The notes under the pieces are model-generated. The model was not told the DNA's origin. It made no database searches and worked only from the letters and a program-made list of their open reading frames with translations. A stretch of DNA of 26,273 nt, taken from positions 1 to 26,273 of the IMG/VR virus record IMGVR_UViG_3300043410_000160; one strand, written 5' to 3'. This document shows, piece by piece, positions 8,953-24,648 of the stretch (the stretch's first letter is position 1; each line of letters opens with the position of its first letter). Origin of the DNA: a virus. Both the position numbers and the translations under genes were made by a program.

Positions 8953-8981
8953 ATTATAACAGATTTTTCTCTGTTTGTCAA
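8953..8981 (-). promoter_or_regulatory. Consensus sigma-70 promoter with extended -10 for the tail/lysis genes
   Basis: On the minus strand the sequence reads TTGACA (8976-8981), a 17-bp spacer (8959-8975) and TATAAT (8953-8958). TG is placed one base before the -10 (extended -10 motif). Both hexamers match the bacterial consensus exactly. The spacer contains an inverted repeat, AACAGA and TCTGTT, separated by GAAAAA, which could be an operator or a short hairpin. The ATG of the adaptor gene lies 26 bp downstream of the -10. Confidence 0.9.
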
Positions 8982-9642: not shown

Positions 9643-11592
9643 TTATTGATCTGCTAAAGCTGAAGTAGGCGGCGTGAAGTTGGCTGTGTATCGGGCGTAG
9701 CCTTTGGTGATCCGCAGATCGTCCATGTACCCGGTCAGATAGTTAGCGGAAGATCCACTCACAGATACCGATGATCCAATTACTGCGTTTCCATCAGTGA
9801 GGTTTGCGCTACTACTGTATGTCGCCACACTTGTTCCGTTCAGATACAAAGTCCAAGTGCTGCCGTTACGCACAAGCGCCACATGCGACCACGCATTCGT
9901 TGCAACGGTTCCGCCAGAAGTGATCGTTGCGGCGGTGTACAGCATCAACGTGTTGCCGGTGTACATTCCGAAGAAGAACCCTCCACTCGAAGCGTCACTC
10001 AAGCGGCAATCAAAGATGCTCTGAAGGCCCGACACGGTTGGATATACCCATGCTTCAACCGTGAAATTGCCTGTTCCAAATGCTGTTGTGTAATTGTTTG
10101 GCGCTCTGTAAAGTCCATCACCACTCCCATCAAACGCCAAACTTCCTGTTCCATACTTCTTCACGCTGGTGCTGATCTGAGCGTTGCCGACCGTTTCAAG
10201 GTCGTTCATCATCGCGTTGTCGTAGATCGCGCCGTTGGTGCAACTCAGCAAAAACTTGGTGTTGGTTACTGCTGTCAATGGAGCGCTCGGCGGCGTGAAG
10301 TTACCGGAGTAAACCATCGAGCCGACAACGATGCGAGCGTTGGTGATATATCCGGCGGCGCACTGCGTAAACTGATCAGCCGCCACGTAGAAGTTGGTGT
10401 ATCCGTAGTTGTAGGAACTTGACGCGGTGCCAATCGACACGCCATTCAGGTACATGGTCAACGTCGATCCGTTGCCTGTGACCGCGATGTGGTTCCATGC
10501 GTTAGGAACGACGCTGGCGGAACCCGTGAACACGGTCGCGTTTGCGGAGTACCAACTGATTTGCGGAAATCCACCGCCGCCTCGGATGAACAGAAGCCAT
10601 GCGTTTGAGGACGCCATGTCGTTCGTGCCCAGCAGCGTCATATTGCTTGCCGCCGATGTCACTGTCGGGTAGTACCAGCATTCGACGGTGAAACTGTTCG
10701 ACCCAATGGCGGTCCCGGTCCAAGTCAGATAATCCCCACTCCCATCAAAGTACCCACTGCCACCAATCGTTGCAGTGCTGTATGCAGCAGAGGGCGCAAA
10801 CGGGCTGAAGCGTTGGACGCTGGGAGAGCCGCCAATCGTGGCCGAATAGTTATTGGCGCTGTTATCCTTGAACCGATTTGATTGACAAGTTAGAAGCGAT
10901 GTGCCAGAAATTGCAGTCAGCGGTAAAGTTGGTGGAGTAAATGTTGACGTGTAGACAGCTGTGCCAACCACCATCCGAGCGTTCGAGATGTAGCAGTTGT
11001 TCCCCGCTGTTGAACCGCCGTACCCTTGATTGACTTGGAATGGCGAACTGTTAAATGCCTTTCCGGAATAAGAACCAGTTGCCTTTGACACGCCGTTGAC
11101 GTAGATCGTCAACGACGATGCATTCGACACCACCGCAATGTGCTGCCACGAATTTGTGATTACCGCACCGGCAGAAGATATGGCAAGGTTGCTGTTCGAG
11201 TAAAAACGGATTGTTCCGTCCGCATCAGTCCAAATCAGCCAGCAACCTGTGTTGTCAGCAGTTCCTTGTGAAAACAGTGTCCTTGCTGCACCAAGGTCCG
11301 TGAAATAGAACCAACCTTCAATCGTCCACGTACCAGTGCCTGTTGCGGGGCCGGAGAACTGCAAGTAGTCGCTAGTGGTAAAGTAATTTGACCAGTTGCT
11401 GCCATACGGCGAGAACGAACCCTGCGTCGTGTTGCCGTTGCGTGTGATGCTGAAGGCGTTGGCGGACGAGTCAAGGAACGTGTTGTTCTGACCGCCGTTC
11501 GTCCCGTCTCCGTGCAGCAGCATGGTGACGTAGTTGAACTGGGGGTCAGTAGGAGCAGCGCCGGATACAGATAAAAATTTATTACTTAACAT
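9643..11592 (-). CDS. Triple-LamG (concanavalin A-like) receptor-binding adhesin
   Basis: This 649-aa protein contains three tandem LamG/ConA-like jelly-roll units at about residues 86-218, 298-432 and 506-638. Each carries a W-x-x-E-x-W-x-Y/F strand (TIEGWFYF, TVECWYYP, TVEAWVYP). Each also has a NxW-H[IV]A strand, a L-[TW]-[IML]-Y-[VL]-NG strand and a closing R-x(5-8)-Y-x-x-x-FTPP motif. Such domains commonly bind carbohydrates, so a receptor-binding or depolymerase-accessory tail role is inferred; no catalytic residues were recognised. The coding DNA is clearly GC-richer (about half GC in sampled lines) than its neighbours, except for the first 15 or so codons. This suggests a horizontally acquired module grafted onto a resident start. 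A chaperone gene follows. Confidence 0.9.
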   Translation of the reverse strand: MLSNKFLSVSGAAPTDPQFNYVTMLLHGDGTNGGQNNTFLDSSANAFSITRNGNTTQGSFSPYGSNWSNYFTTSDYLQFSGPATGTGTWTIEGWFYFTDLGAARTLFSQGTADNTGCWLIWTDADGTIRFYSNSNLAISSAGAVITNSWQHIAVVSNASSLTIYVNGVSKATGSYSGKAFNSSPFQVNQGYGGSTAGNNCYISNARMVVGTAVYTSTFTPPTLPLTAISGTSLLTCQSNRFKDNSANNYSATIGGSPSVQRFSPFAPSAAYSTATIGGSGYFDGSGDYLTWTGTAIGSNSFTVECWYYPTVTSAASNMTLLGTNDMASSNAWLLFIRGGGGFPQISWYSANATVFTGSASVVPNAWNHIAVTGNGSTLTMYLNGVSIGTASSSYNYGYTNFYVAADQFTQCAAGYITNARIVVGSMVYSGNFTPPSAPLTAVTNTKFLLSCTNGAIYDNAMMNDLETVGNAQISTSVKKYGTGSLAFDGSGDGLYRAPNNYTTAFGTGNFTVEAWVYPTVSGLQSIFDCRLSDASSGGFFFGMYTGNTLMLYTAATITSGGTVATNAWSHVALVRNGSTWTLYLNGTSVATYSSSANLTDGNAVIGSSVSVSGSSANYLTGYMDDLRITKGYARYTANFTPPTSALADQ

Positions 11593-11595
11593 TTA

Positions 11596-13476
11596 TTAGT
11601 ATTTCCCGTAGAGAGTTGTACCAACTTTCCACAGAACAACCCAAGTATATCCAGTAGTGGCTAATGTCGGAGCAGCAGCAGACTGTGTAGCCCATGTCAT
11701 AGTAGGCCATGTCACAGAATAAGCTGTACCATCATCAATGCCTAAGATCATAGATTGACCTGCGGAGAGGCTATCGGTTAATGTTGTATTAGCTGATAAT
11801 GTTTTTACTTGAATAGTTCCATTAGCTACATCTAAAGCAGTTCCTGTTAATGTATAAACAGTTTCTGTATAAGAAGAACCAAATTTAACATCTCCAGCAA
11901 AGTAATTTGCAGCAGTTCCGCCAGCGTAGAAGTTCCAGCGACCTGTTCCAGAAGCAATATTGCTGTAGAAGCCGAAGTTGTTGGTTGCGCCTGTAAGCGA
12001 GCTGGCTACGTTAAAACCATACTGATTGGTTACAGCAGCGCCACCCGAAAAAGCCGCAGATGATGCCCTGTAATGCGTCAAGCTGCTTGCGGTAAACGTA
12101 GTCGCCTGCAAGTTGGCATACGTATCAAAATAGATTGGCGTTCCTGTTGCATCCGACTGAATTGTTTGTTGGTTCAGAACAACTTGAGGTGCTGTGCCTA
12201 AAGTCTGCGAACCTGCAATCACAAATCTTTGAGATGCACTTGGAGTACCACCAATACCAACAGTTCCAGAGTTGGTGATTCGCATCCGCTCAGTCGGACT
12301 TGCTGCGCCATCAGCAGTGGTGGAGAATACCAAGCGTCCGGGCATGTCGTTGGTGCCGGGAGTGCCGTCTACAGCAGCCTTAATTGACGCCGCTTCAATG
12401 AATGCAGTTCCGTCAGAACCAGCAAATCTCAAATCAGCAACGTTATCTCCAGATTGAACAACCGTCTGTGTGCCAATGGTTCCGCTGCGTGATTTAGCAA
12501 ACCATGTGATTTGTGAATTTGCACTGGCCTCCCAAGACGCTCCGCCGAAACCACCATCAAAAACAGATGTAGTGTGCGCTTGATATTTTGGAGTTACGCT
12601 GGATACTGAATAAGGAGCAGTCGTTCCAGCTACCACACGACCATTGGCATCCACCACAAACGGAGTCGAATCCGGGTTCGCAGAGTCCTCCACCAGCAGC
12701 GCATTGCCTGCGCCTACCTGCGTGATGCGAAGAGCATCAGTTGATGTATTAGCACTAATCGTTTGACTATTAGTAAACGTATTAGCAGAAGCTAAAGCAG
12801 CATATCCAGCACCAGATACATAAGCAGCTACCCAAGCAGAGCCTGTGTAGAGCTTCATGATTCCATCAACACTATTGAAGTATAAAGCCCCTGCAACAAG
12901 GGCATTACCATCATTATCTAGTGTGGGATCACTAGTTTTAGTACCTAAGTAACGATCATCAAAACTATCATAAGCTGCTAAAGTAGCATCACGGGCAGAC
13001 TCAGCGGCTGTCTGAGCATTAGCTGCGTTAGTTGCAGATGTGGAAGCACTGGATGCTGAAGTAGATGCGCTAGAAGCACTGGAGGCTGCTGCTTGAGCAT
13101 GATATTTAGCTGAATATTCGCCTCCAGCGACTGTTCCTGAAGTCTTAGTAGCCCAATCATTAGCTAAGGCAGCACTGGCAGCAGCTGCGGCAGCATTAGC
13201 AGCCCCTGTACTGATTAAGCCATCGACATAGCCTTTAGTGGACACATCAGACGAAGCAGAGGGAGTACCCATGCCTGTGATTGTACCGCCTGTAATGGCA
13301 ACTGCAGAAGCTTCTTGATTACCTAAAGAGCCTACAACTTTAACAATAGATCCGCCACTGTCTTTAGTGTATAATTTTTTATCTGTTACGTTAACAGCTA
13401 ACTCGCCTTTTACAAGGTCTCCAGCAGCCGGAACTGCGGAAGCTGTAGAACTATTCTTGGTAATAATAGTGCTCAT
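11596..13476 (-). CDS. Tail fibre protein
   Basis: This 626-aa fibre opens with a pattern common at fibre N-termini (VKGELAVNVTDKKLYTKDSG, about residues 23-42). A glycine-rich and TKGYVD segment comes next, then a long Ala/Ser/Thr-rich stretch (about 90-170) with coiled-coil or triple-helix character. Beta-rich distal domains include PTERMRITNSGTVGIGGTPS, which is typical of phage fibres and peptidase-tailed autotransporter-like proteins. The C-terminus (LTDSLSAGQSMILGIDDGT to the final YGKY) is a recurring end domain of aquatic phage fibres. The middle (about 11.93-12.73 kb) is GC-richer than both ends, which suggests internal mosaicism. It precedes the LamG adhesin by 3 bp. Confidence 0.87.
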   Translation of the reverse strand: MSTIITKNSSTASAVPAAGDLVKGELAVNVTDKKLYTKDSGGSIVKVVGSLGNQEASAVAITGGTITGMGTPSASSDVSTKGYVDGLISTGAANAAAAAASAALANDWATKTSGTVAGGEYSAKYHAQAAASSASSASTSASSASTSATNAANAQTAAESARDATLAAYDSFDDRYLGTKTSDPTLDNDGNALVAGALYFNSVDGIMKLYTGSAWVAAYVSGAGYAALASANTFTNSQTISANTSTDALRITQVGAGNALLVEDSANPDSTPFVVDANGRVVAGTTAPYSVSSVTPKYQAHTTSVFDGGFGGASWEASANSQITWFAKSRSGTIGTQTVVQSGDNVADLRFAGSDGTAFIEAASIKAAVDGTPGTNDMPGRLVFSTTADGAASPTERMRITNSGTVGIGGTPSASQRFVIAGSQTLGTAPQVVLNQQTIQSDATGTPIYFDTYANLQATTFTASSLTHYRASSAAFSGGAAVTNQYGFNVASSLTGATNNFGFYSNIASGTGRWNFYAGGTAANYFAGDVKFGSSYTETVYTLTGTALDVANGTIQVKTLSANTTLTDSLSAGQSMILGIDDGTAYSVTWPTMTWATQSAAAPTLATTGYTWVVLWKVGTTLYGKY

Positions 13477-19936: not shown

Positions 19937-21196
19937 TTAATATCCACTTATAGGATCGAGGACTTCATATTCATCCTCTTCATAATCTTGTTGATAAGAT
20001 GTGACAGCTAATTGATCTATGTAAGACAAAGAGTCAACCAAGTCATCGTGAACACCAGCAGTAGGGAACATGATAAGTTGGTCTTTAAATTCATCCCAAT
20101 CTTCATCTTCATTAAAGCTAATGCGACCATGCTCTAAACGACCTTGTAAGCTCCAGACAATACGATCAGCTTTCTTACGATTACCGTGCGTCAGTGTATG
20201 GATATGTGCATAAATATTGTTCTTACGCATCAGATCATTCAAATAAGGTTCTACTGCATTCTTAAGAGCACCTCGTTCAATACCAACAGCAATAGGTTGA
20301 TAATCACGGATAATCTTTAGGATATTGACAGCAGTCTCTTTAATGTCCCAGCGACCGTGATAGATTTTATCTACCCACCAGTTACCATTGTCTTCTACTT
20401 TGACAACTGAGATAGCTGTTTCATCTAGACGTTTCTTTGAAGCATTGGCATTCTTAGCCACTTCTTCAAAACCAGCCAAGTCAATAGCTACCACGTATTC
20501 ACCGTACTTAGGCTCTGAAGATTTTTTAAACCATTCTTCCTTAAAGACATCAGCACCTGAAGTATCGAAGCTAGACAGATATTCCTGCTTGAATGCAAAG
20601 GAGCTTAGAGTCCTCTTAGCAGCTTCAATTTCCTTAGGATCAATAGTCTCGTTATCAGAGGTAGTGAAGTGCCAAGCTTTCCACTCCTCATCCTCTTCAG
20701 TCTGTCCTAGCTTGAACGTATCGTAGAACCAGTTACGACCTGAAGGAGTTGAGATGAATAAGGCTCTGCCTTTCTTGTCAGACAGAGCAGCACGTAAGAT
20801 CTTCTCCCATACGTCCTGCTTAATGAAGGCTACTTCGTCCATAACTAAATAGGTTAAAGACACACCTCGTAAGGAGTCAGGATTGTCAGCACCACGTACA
20901 AGGATCTTCCTACCGTTGATTAAGGTAATCTCTAGGTTGTTAACGTGGGAAGATTTGATGATAGGTCTACCTAGCTCATGCAGGAGATCCCAGATAATAG
21001 TTCTAGCTTGTCCCAATGTAGGTGCTACGTACATGACGCTAGAGCCATCAGGACAGTTAAGACCTTCAATCAGCAGTGTGACAGCAGACAATCTGGACTT
21101 ACCACAACGACGACCAGCAGCTACTACCTTAAAGCGATGGGTATCCTTGAATACCTCTTGTTGCCATTTAAGGAGTTTAAAATCAAGAGTTGTCAT
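19937..21196 (-). CDS. terL: Terminase large subunit (packaging ATPase and nuclease)
   Basis: The protein translocates DNA into the procapsid and cuts concatemers. Using the ATG at 21194-21196 it has 419 residues. The ATPase part has Walker A GRRCGKS (about 28-34), Walker B LVMDEV (about 117-122) and coupling motif STPSG (about 149-153). The RNase H-like nuclease has its acidic residues in AIDLAG (D at about 239), GIERG (E at about 307) and HDDLVDSLSY (about 383-392). A further ATG nine codons upstream (21223) is possible. The chosen start has AAGGAG ten bases before it and overlaps the small terminase gene by 14 bp. The motifs are complete, so the enzyme is probably active. Confidence 0.96.
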   Translation of the reverse strand: MTTLDFKLLKWQQEVFKDTHRFKVVAAGRRCGKSRLSAVTLLIEGLNCPDGSSVMYVAPTLGQARTIIWDLLHELGRPIIKSSHVNNLEITLINGRKILVRGADNPDSLRGVSLTYLVMDEVAFIKQDVWEKILRAALSDKKGRALFISTPSGRNWFYDTFKLGQTEEDEEWKAWHFTTSDNETIDPKEIEAAKRTLSSFAFKQEYLSSFDTSGADVFKEEWFKKSSEPKYGEYVVAIDLAGFEEVAKNANASKKRLDETAISVVKVEDNGNWWVDKIYHGRWDIKETAVNILKIIRDYQPIAVGIERGALKNAVEPYLNDLMRKNNIYAHIHTLTHGNRKKADRIVWSLQGRLEHGRISFNEDEDWDEFKDQLIMFPTAGVHDDLVDSLSYIDQLAVTSYQQDYEEDEYEVLDPISGY

Positions 21197-21587
21197 CTTC
21201 TGAGTACTCCTTGACTTCAACATCTGTTACATCGTATACCTGCTCTGTAGCCTCTACCGTAGGATTAGACAAACCAGAGATATTGATACTGATCTGTGGG
21301 GTAGATCCTGAGTTCTTAGACTGGTCAAAGGCTGATACAGGAACAATACGATCAGCTACTAACTTCCAAGCAGCAGCTTGATGAGGATGTTTATCATTTA
21401 AGGCAGCATTGAGGATAGTCTCTAAGACCTTAGCTGACTTAGGACTTGCAAGCATCCTAGCTTTGTATTCATTGATAATAGATGCATCACCCTTAGGTCT
21501 ACCTACTGCATTCCTATTACCTGCCTTGACTGTCTCAATGTCAGTCTTCTTAGGTCTACCTTTTTTGTTACCTGATGGTTTAGTCAT
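21183..21587 (-). CDS. terS: Terminase small subunit-like DNA-binding protein
   Basis: This 134-aa protein lies directly upstream of, and overlaps, the large terminase gene. Two AT-hook-like motifs (KKGRPKK and VGRPKGD) sit in a basic N-terminus. A helical middle follows (SIINEYKARMLASPKSAKVL, then ETILNAALNDKHPHQAAAWK) and ends LVADRIVP, a pattern seen in small terminases of aquatic phages. The C-terminus is acidic (DVTDVEVKEYSEDDNS) and could contact the large subunit. It would recognise the packaging site and stimulate the ATPase. It is the first gene of the late operon, preceded by a leader of roughly 230 nt. Confidence 0.85.
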   Translation of the reverse strand: MTKPSGNKKGRPKKTDIETVKAGNRNAVGRPKGDASIINEYKARMLASPKSAKVLETILNAALNDKHPHQAAAWKLVADRIVPVSAFDQSKNSGSTPQISINISGLSNPTVEATEQVYDVTDVEVKEYSEDDNS

Positions 21588-21626
21588 TACGTCTTTGTCC
21601 TTTTACGGAGACTTTAGAGTCTTTAC

Positions 21627-21642
21627 GATGCTTAGAAGCATC
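21627..21642 (-). other. Leader hairpin near the small terminase start
   Basis: GATGCTT and AAGCATC form a perfect inverted repeat separated by AG, giving a stem of at least six pairs with a four-base loop. Just downstream in the transcript AGACT (21619-21623) and AGTCT (21610-21614) could form a second small hairpin. Both lie in the untranslated leader of the late mRNA, 23-55 bp before the small terminase ATG. Neither has a U-run, so a processing, stability or translation-control role is more likely than termination. Confidence 0.55.
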
Positions 21643-21702
21643 TTAGAAACACCTAAGTACAGGAATCTAAGTTAAATATACTCTTAATGTTATACTTAAA
21701 TT

Positions 21703-21723
21703 AGTTCCCTTACCAAGGTGTAC
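21703..21723. repeat. 21-bp imperfect direct repeat, copy 1
   Basis: The unit begins AGTTCCC and ends GGTGTAC. It matches copy 2 at 21920-21940 at 17 of 21 positions. The core CCTT-ACC-AAGG is a small dyad. This copy lies downstream of the late promoter, in the leader. Confidence 0.7.
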
Positions 21724-21734
21724 GTTTTAGGTTA

Positions 21735-21760
21735 CTAAGAAGTGGGGTCAGGCTTCTTAG
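21735..21760 (-). other. Leader hairpin, 8-bp stem
   Basis: CTAAGAAG (21735-21742) and CTTCTTAG (21753-21760) are perfect inverted repeats around a ten-base loop. A second nested-type pair, GGAACT (21760-21765) and AGTTCC (21782-21787), lies closer to the predicted transcription start. On the late transcript these would form consecutive stem-loops in the first 80 nt. No U-run follows, so they are not standard terminators. Confidence 0.55.
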
Positions 21761-21789
21761 GAACTTTATAGTTTTAACTTGAGTTCCTG

Positions 21790-21816
21790 ACTAGTTACTG
21801 TCTAAATTTAACTAGT
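21790..21816. promoter_or_regulatory. Dyad at the predicted late transcription start (possible operator)
   Basis: ACTAGTTA (21790-21797) and TAACTAGT (21809-21816) form a perfect 8-bp inverted repeat with an 11-bp gap. The predicted start of the late transcript falls at about 21816, so a protein bound here could block initiation or escape. It could equally form a hairpin at the very 5' end of the mRNA. Confidence 0.55.
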
Positions 21817-21822
21817 ACATAT

Positions 21823-21851
21823 ATTATACCACATTTTTAGTCTTTTGTCAA
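21823..21851 (-). promoter_or_regulatory. Consensus extended -10 sigma-70 promoter of the late operon
   Basis: On the minus strand TTGACA (21846-21851), a 17-bp spacer and TATAAT (21823-21828) occur with TG one base before the -10. Both hexamers match consensus exactly. A-tracts lie directly upstream (21856-21886), like an UP element. The predicted start is near 21816, leaving a leader of roughly 230 nt before the small terminase gene. Confidence 0.92.
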
Positions 21852-21887
21852 GTGTTTTCTTCATCTTTTTTTATTTTTTTACTTTTA

Positions 21888-21903
21888 TGTGATCTACATC
21901 ACA
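21888..21903. promoter_or_regulatory. Near-consensus CRP/Vfr-like binding site
   Basis: The sequence TGTGATCTACATCACA carries both half-sites of the CRP consensus (TGTGA, six bases, TCACA). It differs from the ideal E. coli 16-mer core at one central base. Its centre is about 80 bp upstream of the predicted late start, near the class I activating position at -82.5. Whether the host has CRP or an equivalent such as Vfr is not known from this window. Confidence 0.75.
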
Positions 21904-21940: not shown

Positions 21941-22390
21941 AGATTGTCCTCCAGAGTCTATATAGTTATATTTTATAATTATCTTATCTGACAAGGACTT
22001 ACTTGTTTCCTATACAGTGCACTATCTTGGTGCTATATTTCCTTATTTTACTCTTTTGTGTGCTTTAGAGGCTCCCACAAAAGTTAAACACTAACGCCCA
22101 CCCCTCCCCCCATGACTTTGTAGGCTAAGAAGTTACTAAGCAGTCATAATTATACTATACAGTCTAGTCAGCTACTAGTCAGGTTAGATAGTAAGTGTAC
22201 TTATGAGTTGTAGTTATACTACATAGTTACATTGTAGACTCTGTAGTTATGTTACAGAATCTGCAGTGTGAAGGACAATGTAGGACCCTATAAAGTGACT
22301 AAACAGTCTATAACGACACCTTACAAGAAACTGTAATACCAAGCGAAGCGTTTATCCAGTAATACTGTATGCCATGTAAAGAATTGTAAA

Positions 22391-22416: not shown

Positions 22417-22444
22417 TTGACAGTGCCAATGACTGTGCTATAGT
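22417..22444 (+). promoter_or_regulatory. Sigma-70 promoter of the early genes
   Basis: TTGACA (22417-22422) is followed by a 16-bp spacer and TATAGT (22439-22444), with TG one base before the -10. The predicted start near 22451 lies about 40 bp before the first early ATG. It is the best rightward promoter found in the divergent region. Confidence 0.75.
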
Positions 22445-22630: not shown

Positions 22631-22698
22631 ACACCTATTGTTTGGCCTTTAAAGGCTCTTACAATCAACACATCAACAACTCATTGGAGATAATCATC

Positions 22699-24411: not shown

Positions 24412-24648
24412 ATGCGTTGTAGCTGCTGTAATCATAGACTGTCAGATTATGAAACAACCTTGAAACATGCCATCACAGGGGTGTATCTGGACACATGTTT
24501 GGATTGCTTGTCTGAGATTGCACATGAGGTTCCCATGCCAGTTAAGGGTAGGAAAGACCTTATTGCTAACATGGATATCCCTCAAGAACTTGACAAGGAT
24601 GAGGGCACACTATATAATAACTATAGAGATAACTTAGAAGATGACTAA
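24412..24648 (+). CDS. Small zinc-binding early protein
   Basis: This 78-aa protein has a treble-clef or ribbon-like cysteine set: C3-SC-C6 at the N-terminus and C29-LD-C32. Between them lies a conserved-looking helix and strand (LSDYETTLKHAITGVYLDT). The second half is acidic (DIPQELDKDEGTLYNNYRDN). Proteins with the same start (MRC-x-x-C-x-x-x-LSDYE) are common in T7-like and vibriophage-type early regions, with no settled role. It follows a possible weak terminator and is followed by a 142-bp AT-rich gap. Confidence 0.83.
   Translation: MRCSCCNHRLSDYETTLKHAITGVYLDTCLDCLSEIAHEVPMPVKGRKDLIANMDIPQELDKDEGTLYNNYRDNLEDD

Follow-up and report, generated by a model that had tools for sequence, protein, structure and literature searches.

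A consensus host-type promoter, a helically phased CRP-type box and a candidate structured leader RNA at the head of the late operon in a group of uncultivated phages

The window analysed here is an uncultivated viral contig of 26,273 bases. Its minus strand carries genes for a putative small terminase subunit (terS), the large terminase subunit (TerL), the portal, the major capsid protein and tail proteins, and its plus strand carries, from position 22642, small genes that mostly have no assigned function; no tRNA genes were found in the window. The coordinates of the features discussed in this work are collected in Table 1. IMG/VR holds plentiful relatives of the contig, and no phage isolate matching it at the DNA level was found. 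By protein, even the closest isolates are only distantly related: the podoviruses of Pelagibacter and Roseobacter (HTVC and CRP isolates, HMO-2011 type) resemble this group in having a T7-like DNA polymerase, with at most 47% identity to that of pelagiphages, and in their aquatic hosts, but their portal and capsid proteins are just 20-37% identical to those encoded here. The habitat of the window's phage is probably aquatic as well. Four long relatives (36-41 kb) are organized in two divergent arms and encode replication proteins of the T7-like kind, namely PolA, a primase-helicase, endonuclease I and a weakly matching exonuclease, together with a ribonucleotide reductase recognized by inspection, and a T7-sized, lytic-type phage group is the best explanation for the source of the window. 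The group appears to have no RNA polymerase of its own, a statement based on ORF sizes in the four long relatives, all of which lack an early ORF of T7-polymerase size; a Pfam search of 18 records for a single-subunit RNA polymerase returned 0 matches, with the controls of that search giving none either.

Table 1. Coordinates and supporting observations for the features of the late-operon region and for two further promoters in the window
Feature	Position	Strand	Observation
Late promoter core	21823..21851	-	12/12 match; conserved in relatives
-35 hexamer, TTGACA	21851-21846	-	exact
Extended -10 TG	21831-21830	-	present
-10 hexamer, TATAAT	21828-21823	-	exact; 17-nt spacer from the -35
A-rich stretch at the UP-element position	21854..21885	-	sequence; A/T-rich in 80 relatives
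CRP-type box TGTGA-N6-TCACA, TGTGATGTAGATCACA	21888..21903	-	exact palindrome; centre at about -79.5
Expected transcription start	21816	-	inferred, 7 nt past the -10
Late-operon 5' leader, 229 nt	21588..21816	-	start assumed; folds better than shuffles
Structured RNA element P1-P2-P3	21659..21789	-	covariation; covariance model matches
P1	21789-21773 paired with 21676-21660	-	long-range helix
P2 hairpin, loop CCTGACCCCA	21760-21735	-	covariation
P3	21718-21708	-	small; weakly supported as aligned
Hairpin GTCTCC..GGACAAAGAC holding the terS Shine-Dalgarno	21591..21612	-	pattern unique in the window; arms covary
terS, putative small terminase subunit, first gene of the late operon	21183..21587	-	134 aa; named by position; no match in family search
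terL, large terminase subunit	19937..21223	-	phrog_2, E 9e-50
Divergent promoter TTGACA-16-TATAGT with TG, rightward genes	22417..22444	+	11/12; similar divergent sites in relatives
Second exact TTGACA-17-TATAAT with TG	8953-8981	-	inside the late operon

The earlier note had described the packaging and structural operon as headed by an exact TTGACA-17-TATAAT promoter with an extended -10 TG, preceded directly by A-tracts resembling an UP element and, beyond them, by a CRP-like site, and all of these elements are present. The promoter combines the features of the extended -10 sigma-70 class (TTGACA, a spacer of 16-18 nt, TATAAT and a TG one base before the -10 hexamer), and this extended pattern, allowing for at most one mismatch, occurs in two copies in the window versus 0.04 expected by shuffling. 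A promoter with at least 11 of 12 matches and the TG lies no more than 700 nt 5' of terS in 58 of 109 distinct relatives; dinucleotide shuffles give 0-1 such promoters and the opposite strand gives 0. Full 12/12 promoters upstream of terS number 42 among the 109 relatives versus 0 in the controls, and the region upstream of the capsid gene, taken as a further control, contains such a promoter in 0 of 51 relatives. In a second set of relatives, gathered by DNA pattern instead of protein and partly overlapping the first, 96 of 118 upstream regions present a promoter with at least 11/12 matches. The hexamers are kept under the same gene order, so that their loss in relatives, a possibility raised beforehand, is not seen, and the start of transcription previously placed near 21816 agrees with the position expected 7 nt past the -10. 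On sequence grounds, the host-type sigma-70 promoter at which the packaging and structural operon begins is real.

The second exact promoter listed in Table 1 sits 26 nt 5' of a gene for a 217-aa tail protein, which would give it a very short leader, and a promoter of at least 11/12 is present there in 3 of 8 relatives. A third exact TTGACA-17-TATAAT, in this case with no TG, lies on the plus strand at 24590-24618, where a small rightward gene ends.

Strong cores of this kind suit on/off repression, and the late promoter could be held off by a phage repressor until early products remove it. The several inverted repeats of the intergenic region and the many early proteins that have no assignment would accommodate such a repressor, but the early genes scanned include none that was recognized as coding for an HTH repressor, an integrase or a lysogeny function, and a non-exhaustive look revealed no operator-like repeat conserved over the core promoter. 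We consequently regard repression as improbable; a phage repressor or activator might nonetheless be encoded among the many unassigned small early proteins, with nothing pointing to a repressor.

Upstream of the core, columns -4 to -30 from the -35 hexamer are mostly 71-100% A/T across 80 relatives, the exceptions being columns -8, -11 and -21, at 51-59%. The 16-bp CRP palindrome that follows occurs once in the window versus 0.05 expected. As in class I CRP promoters, this exact box lies upstream of the -35, and it is enriched in relatives: in 1.8 Mb of sequence from these phages, the exact TGTGA-N6-TCACA is found in 19 distinct contexts, 15 of which lie no more than 700 nt 5' of terS, and nine control palindromes of like form yield 0 instances within 700 nt upstream of terS. 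When all fetched loci are counted, 42 distinct box-promoter contexts are obtained. Relative to a start assumed to lie 7 nt past the -10, the box centres in these contexts fall at -70.5 (3 contexts), -79.5 (1), -80.5 (27), -81.5 (2), -90.5 (5), -100.5 (2), -111.5 (1) and -131.5 (1). They are hence spaced by whole helical turns (R = 0.94 at 10.25 bp, counting each distinct position once), a degree of phasing reached by 0 of 20,000 random position sets, and the boxes of the 42 contexts occupy one helix face relative to the promoter, as class I sites do. A start off by a base or two would shift all positions jointly, leaving the phasing unaffected. One locus, L050, carries a further box at -61.5, and another, L044, which falls outside the 42-context set due to its stricter matching, has its box at about -82.5 if TG-TACAAT is taken as its -10. 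Judged by this pattern, the CRP-like site is real and under selection.

The CRP of E. coli activates strongly from -61.5, -71.5/-72.5 and -81.5/-82.5 but shows no activity at -66.5 and next to none at -76.5, its activity recurring about every 10.5 bp, and class I CRP works solely through the stabilization of polymerase binding (PMC6301791). The arrangement described here resembles class I CRP promoters of the lac type (PMC6301791) in the exact TGTGA-N6-TCACA 5' of a sigma-70 promoter, in the use of phases active in E. coli and in its period; it differs from them in having a near-consensus core, in being located in a phage, in extending its boxes out to -131.5 and in being predicted from sequence. 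The simplest reading is that a host activator of the CRP family, acting in the class I manner and presumably CRP itself, would bind the box, and the phasing suggests activation. Given that class I CRP only stabilizes polymerase binding, its effect on a consensus core could be small, and we predict that the box would count chiefly under a shortage of polymerase or where the A/T-rich DNA is covered.

The box is absent from most relatives, which makes it a lineage-specific setting, and at least 8 gains or losses of it can be counted on the TerL tree, some of which recombination could explain. In one relative (L027) an exact box stands beside a degraded -35, as expected if the box compensates for a weak core. 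These gains, losses and whole-turn shifts amount to a record, left in nature, of selection favouring one helix face. Host cAMP-CRP is known to act on a phage promoter in T1, where it represses pir in the lysogeny-lysis switch (PMC6737242). Both cases would involve host cAMP-CRP on phage promoters and a coupling of phage development to the sugar state of the host, but here the phasing suggests activation, and the promoter belongs to the late operon of a phage with no recognized lysogeny genes. If functional, the phased box would couple virion production to host carbon status, a link through CRP that is known for the T1 switch and was not found for a phage late operon in the literature searched.

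The leader that the late promoter would produce is long. In most lineages the promoter is separated from terS by 160-340 nt, which makes the long leader itself a conserved feature, and leaders are 160-340 nt long in most relatives; that of the window folds better than its own shuffles, with a z of -3.28. Within this leader, P1 is a long-range helix with an invariant internal loop (ACUC/AGAU) that encloses P3 and P2, the latter with CCUGACCCCA as its commonest loop type. The consensus fold of untrimmed leaders misses P1 on account of misaligned arms, and trimming to the element recovers it; the trimmed core elements (n = 10) all have a negative z, from -1.85 to -3.93. Pairing between the two arms of P1 holds at 0.905 of positions, the highest value among shuffles being 0.79. 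An alignment that had not been adjusted to the structure contains 17 compensatory cells versus 5.9 +/- 1.7 in shuffled data, and 49 model-aligned sequences, an alignment biased towards the structure, contain 127 versus 41.8, with a covariation of 0.324 versus 0.096 that is gone once the partners are slid. P1 and P2 are well supported by these results, and P3 weakly so as aligned. A covariance model built from 16 sequences matches 44 of 100 sources, in one place each, and the placeable matches (n = 25) all lie 41-563 nt 5' of terS, all but one of them within 173 nt. Neither the window nor any of 17 relatives gave a match at the gathering score in a comparison with Rfam 15; RAGATH-7 and microRNAs scored at chance level in this comparison and were discarded. 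A regulatory role is proposed for this leader RNA.

Control of a strong promoter after initiation is a known phage strategy, as in lambda PR' with Q. Here too, as in lambda PR' and Q antitermination (PMC7171158 for Q), a strong constitutive host-type promoter is followed by a long structured leader ahead of the late genes, and the late operon might likewise use an early leader terminator that a phage antiterminator overcomes. Unlike in lambda, however, no intrinsic terminator was found in the window leader or in the leaders of 80 relatives, no Q-like protein was recognized among the proteins scanned, many of them unassigned, and the leader is a covarying RNA. Termination in this leader might instead depend on Rho, and we consider antitermination of the lambda type to be very improbable.

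The transcript just 5' of terS contains a hairpin of the form GUCUCC-loop-GGAYAAAGAC, with the Shine-Dalgarno inside it, in 89 of 106 distinct leaders. Its outer arms covary (GUCU/AGAC in 54, AUCU/AGAU in 19 and AUGU/ACAU in 10), and in the latter two types the arm mostly extends to the start codon. Across 1.8 Mb, no locus has more than one copy of the exact hairpin pattern, and a pattern scan of the collection and the fetched loci locates it directly 5' of terS/terL in 139 of 144 places among the matches listed. Some phages control translation through an operator that covers a ribosome-binding site, one example being that of the MS2 coat gene. Operators of this type share with the hairpin a conserved small structure over the Shine-Dalgarno and start region, but their sequence is unrelated, and the hairpin described here is located at the start of the late operon of a dsDNA phage.

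Packaging sites often adjoin terS, and this proximity, together with a conserved G-run block about 300 nt 5' of the promoter, could be taken to mean that the conserved pairing marks a DNA site for packaging or recombination and not an RNA. Against this, arms about 100 nt apart covary, and 5 of the 8 P1 pairs include G-U when read on the transcript strand, with U-G at a sixth, which favours RNA over a DNA site. In addition, the last hairpin contains the Shine-Dalgarno, with variants extending to the start codon, and contig starts do not cluster at the G-run block. A DNA site thus seems to us highly improbable.

The evidence computed here consists of conservation, helical phasing and covariation. 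We think it probable, with some reservation, that sigma-70 initiation at the late operon is constitutive, with host cAMP-CRP tuning it in some lineages and the leader RNA exerting control after initiation. Host RNA polymerase with its housekeeping sigma factor would initiate at the consensus extended -10 promoter, and a CRP-family protein bound near -80, or whole turns off, would contact the C-terminal domain of the alpha subunit and strengthen initiation. This help would be limited to the lineage of the window and several others, and the boost would be most likely with polymerase limiting or the A/T-rich DNA covered. The nascent leader would fold into P1-P2-P3, the final hairpin would mask the ribosome-binding site of terS, and terS would be translated once its hairpin opens. 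Late timing would then probably be set in RNA, through control of translation or elongation, or the late genes might be transcribed from the start with terS kept low.

The near-maximal promoter had earlier been read as implying either that the late genes are expressed at once or that a phage factor tightly represses them. That choice proves too narrow, since the phased CRP box and the structured leader add two layers to the system. We deem it more likely that late timing is set after initiation, by the leader RNA or by terS translation, than by a promoter repressor. A purely constitutive promoter, with late genes on from the start of infection and a leader that affects mRNA stability only, leaves the phased CRP boxes, the covarying leader and the Shine-Dalgarno hairpin unexplained. 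We therefore consider it unlikely, even if it would fit the near-maximal core, the lack of any recognized operator or repressor and the very short leader of the second exact promoter inside the operon.

The mechanism of late-gene delay is often obscure in phages that have no RNA polymerase of their own, and the combination of a phased CRP box and an Rfam-absent leader RNA at a conserved consensus promoter provides two separable features. Each type of component is already known; the combination and the RNA element were not found in Rfam or in the literature searched, which mostly excluded subscription papers. A broader proposal, which we put forward as a tentative and rather doubtful one, is that this lytic phage group may tune virion production to host carbon, with cAMP-CRP setting the late rate and the leader RNA and hairpin setting the timing, the two together taking over the role of a phage polymerase, sigma factor or repressor.

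Regarding the host, a search of GTDB genomes gave a single match, a 4.7-kb contig (L170, CAIUZV010000033.1) with a TerL 68% identical, binned in a MAG titled uncultured beta proteobacterium. Through this binning, the contig offers a weak hint of a betaproteobacterial host. No CRP-like protein was found in the MAG itself, and CRP-like proteins with a REMVSR helix are present in the same order. A 20-kb piece of the window searched against 399 genomes of that order returned only the known contig and short matches, mostly tail-gene-like. Tail-fibre-like genes of the window (9665-9732 and 12275-13026) match four loci of the same order (L180, L181, L182 and L183); these short matches are perhaps shared tail modules and, as far as seen, not CRISPR spacers.

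Several further observations concern the intergenic region. The G-run block consists, on the minus strand, of GGGGGGAGGGG at 22101-22111 and the approximately 75 nt downstream of it, arranged as GGGGGGAGGGG ... GGGAGCCTCT ... CACAAAAAAGTAAAA. It is conserved in 73 of 81 relatives, with the G-run present in L170 too, and is perhaps a replication origin or a packaging site; as a packaging end it was rejected, contig starts showing no clustering there. The sequence TGTGGATAA, which read on the other strand gives the consensus DnaA box, is found in 22 of 59 terS upstream regions of relatives, and the divergent region may be a replication origin. In some relatives (upstream regions of L031, L045 and L047) TCAGGGCT or TCAGAC comes after the G-run, and these sequences approximate the complement of CCTGACCCC, the P2 loop in other relatives.
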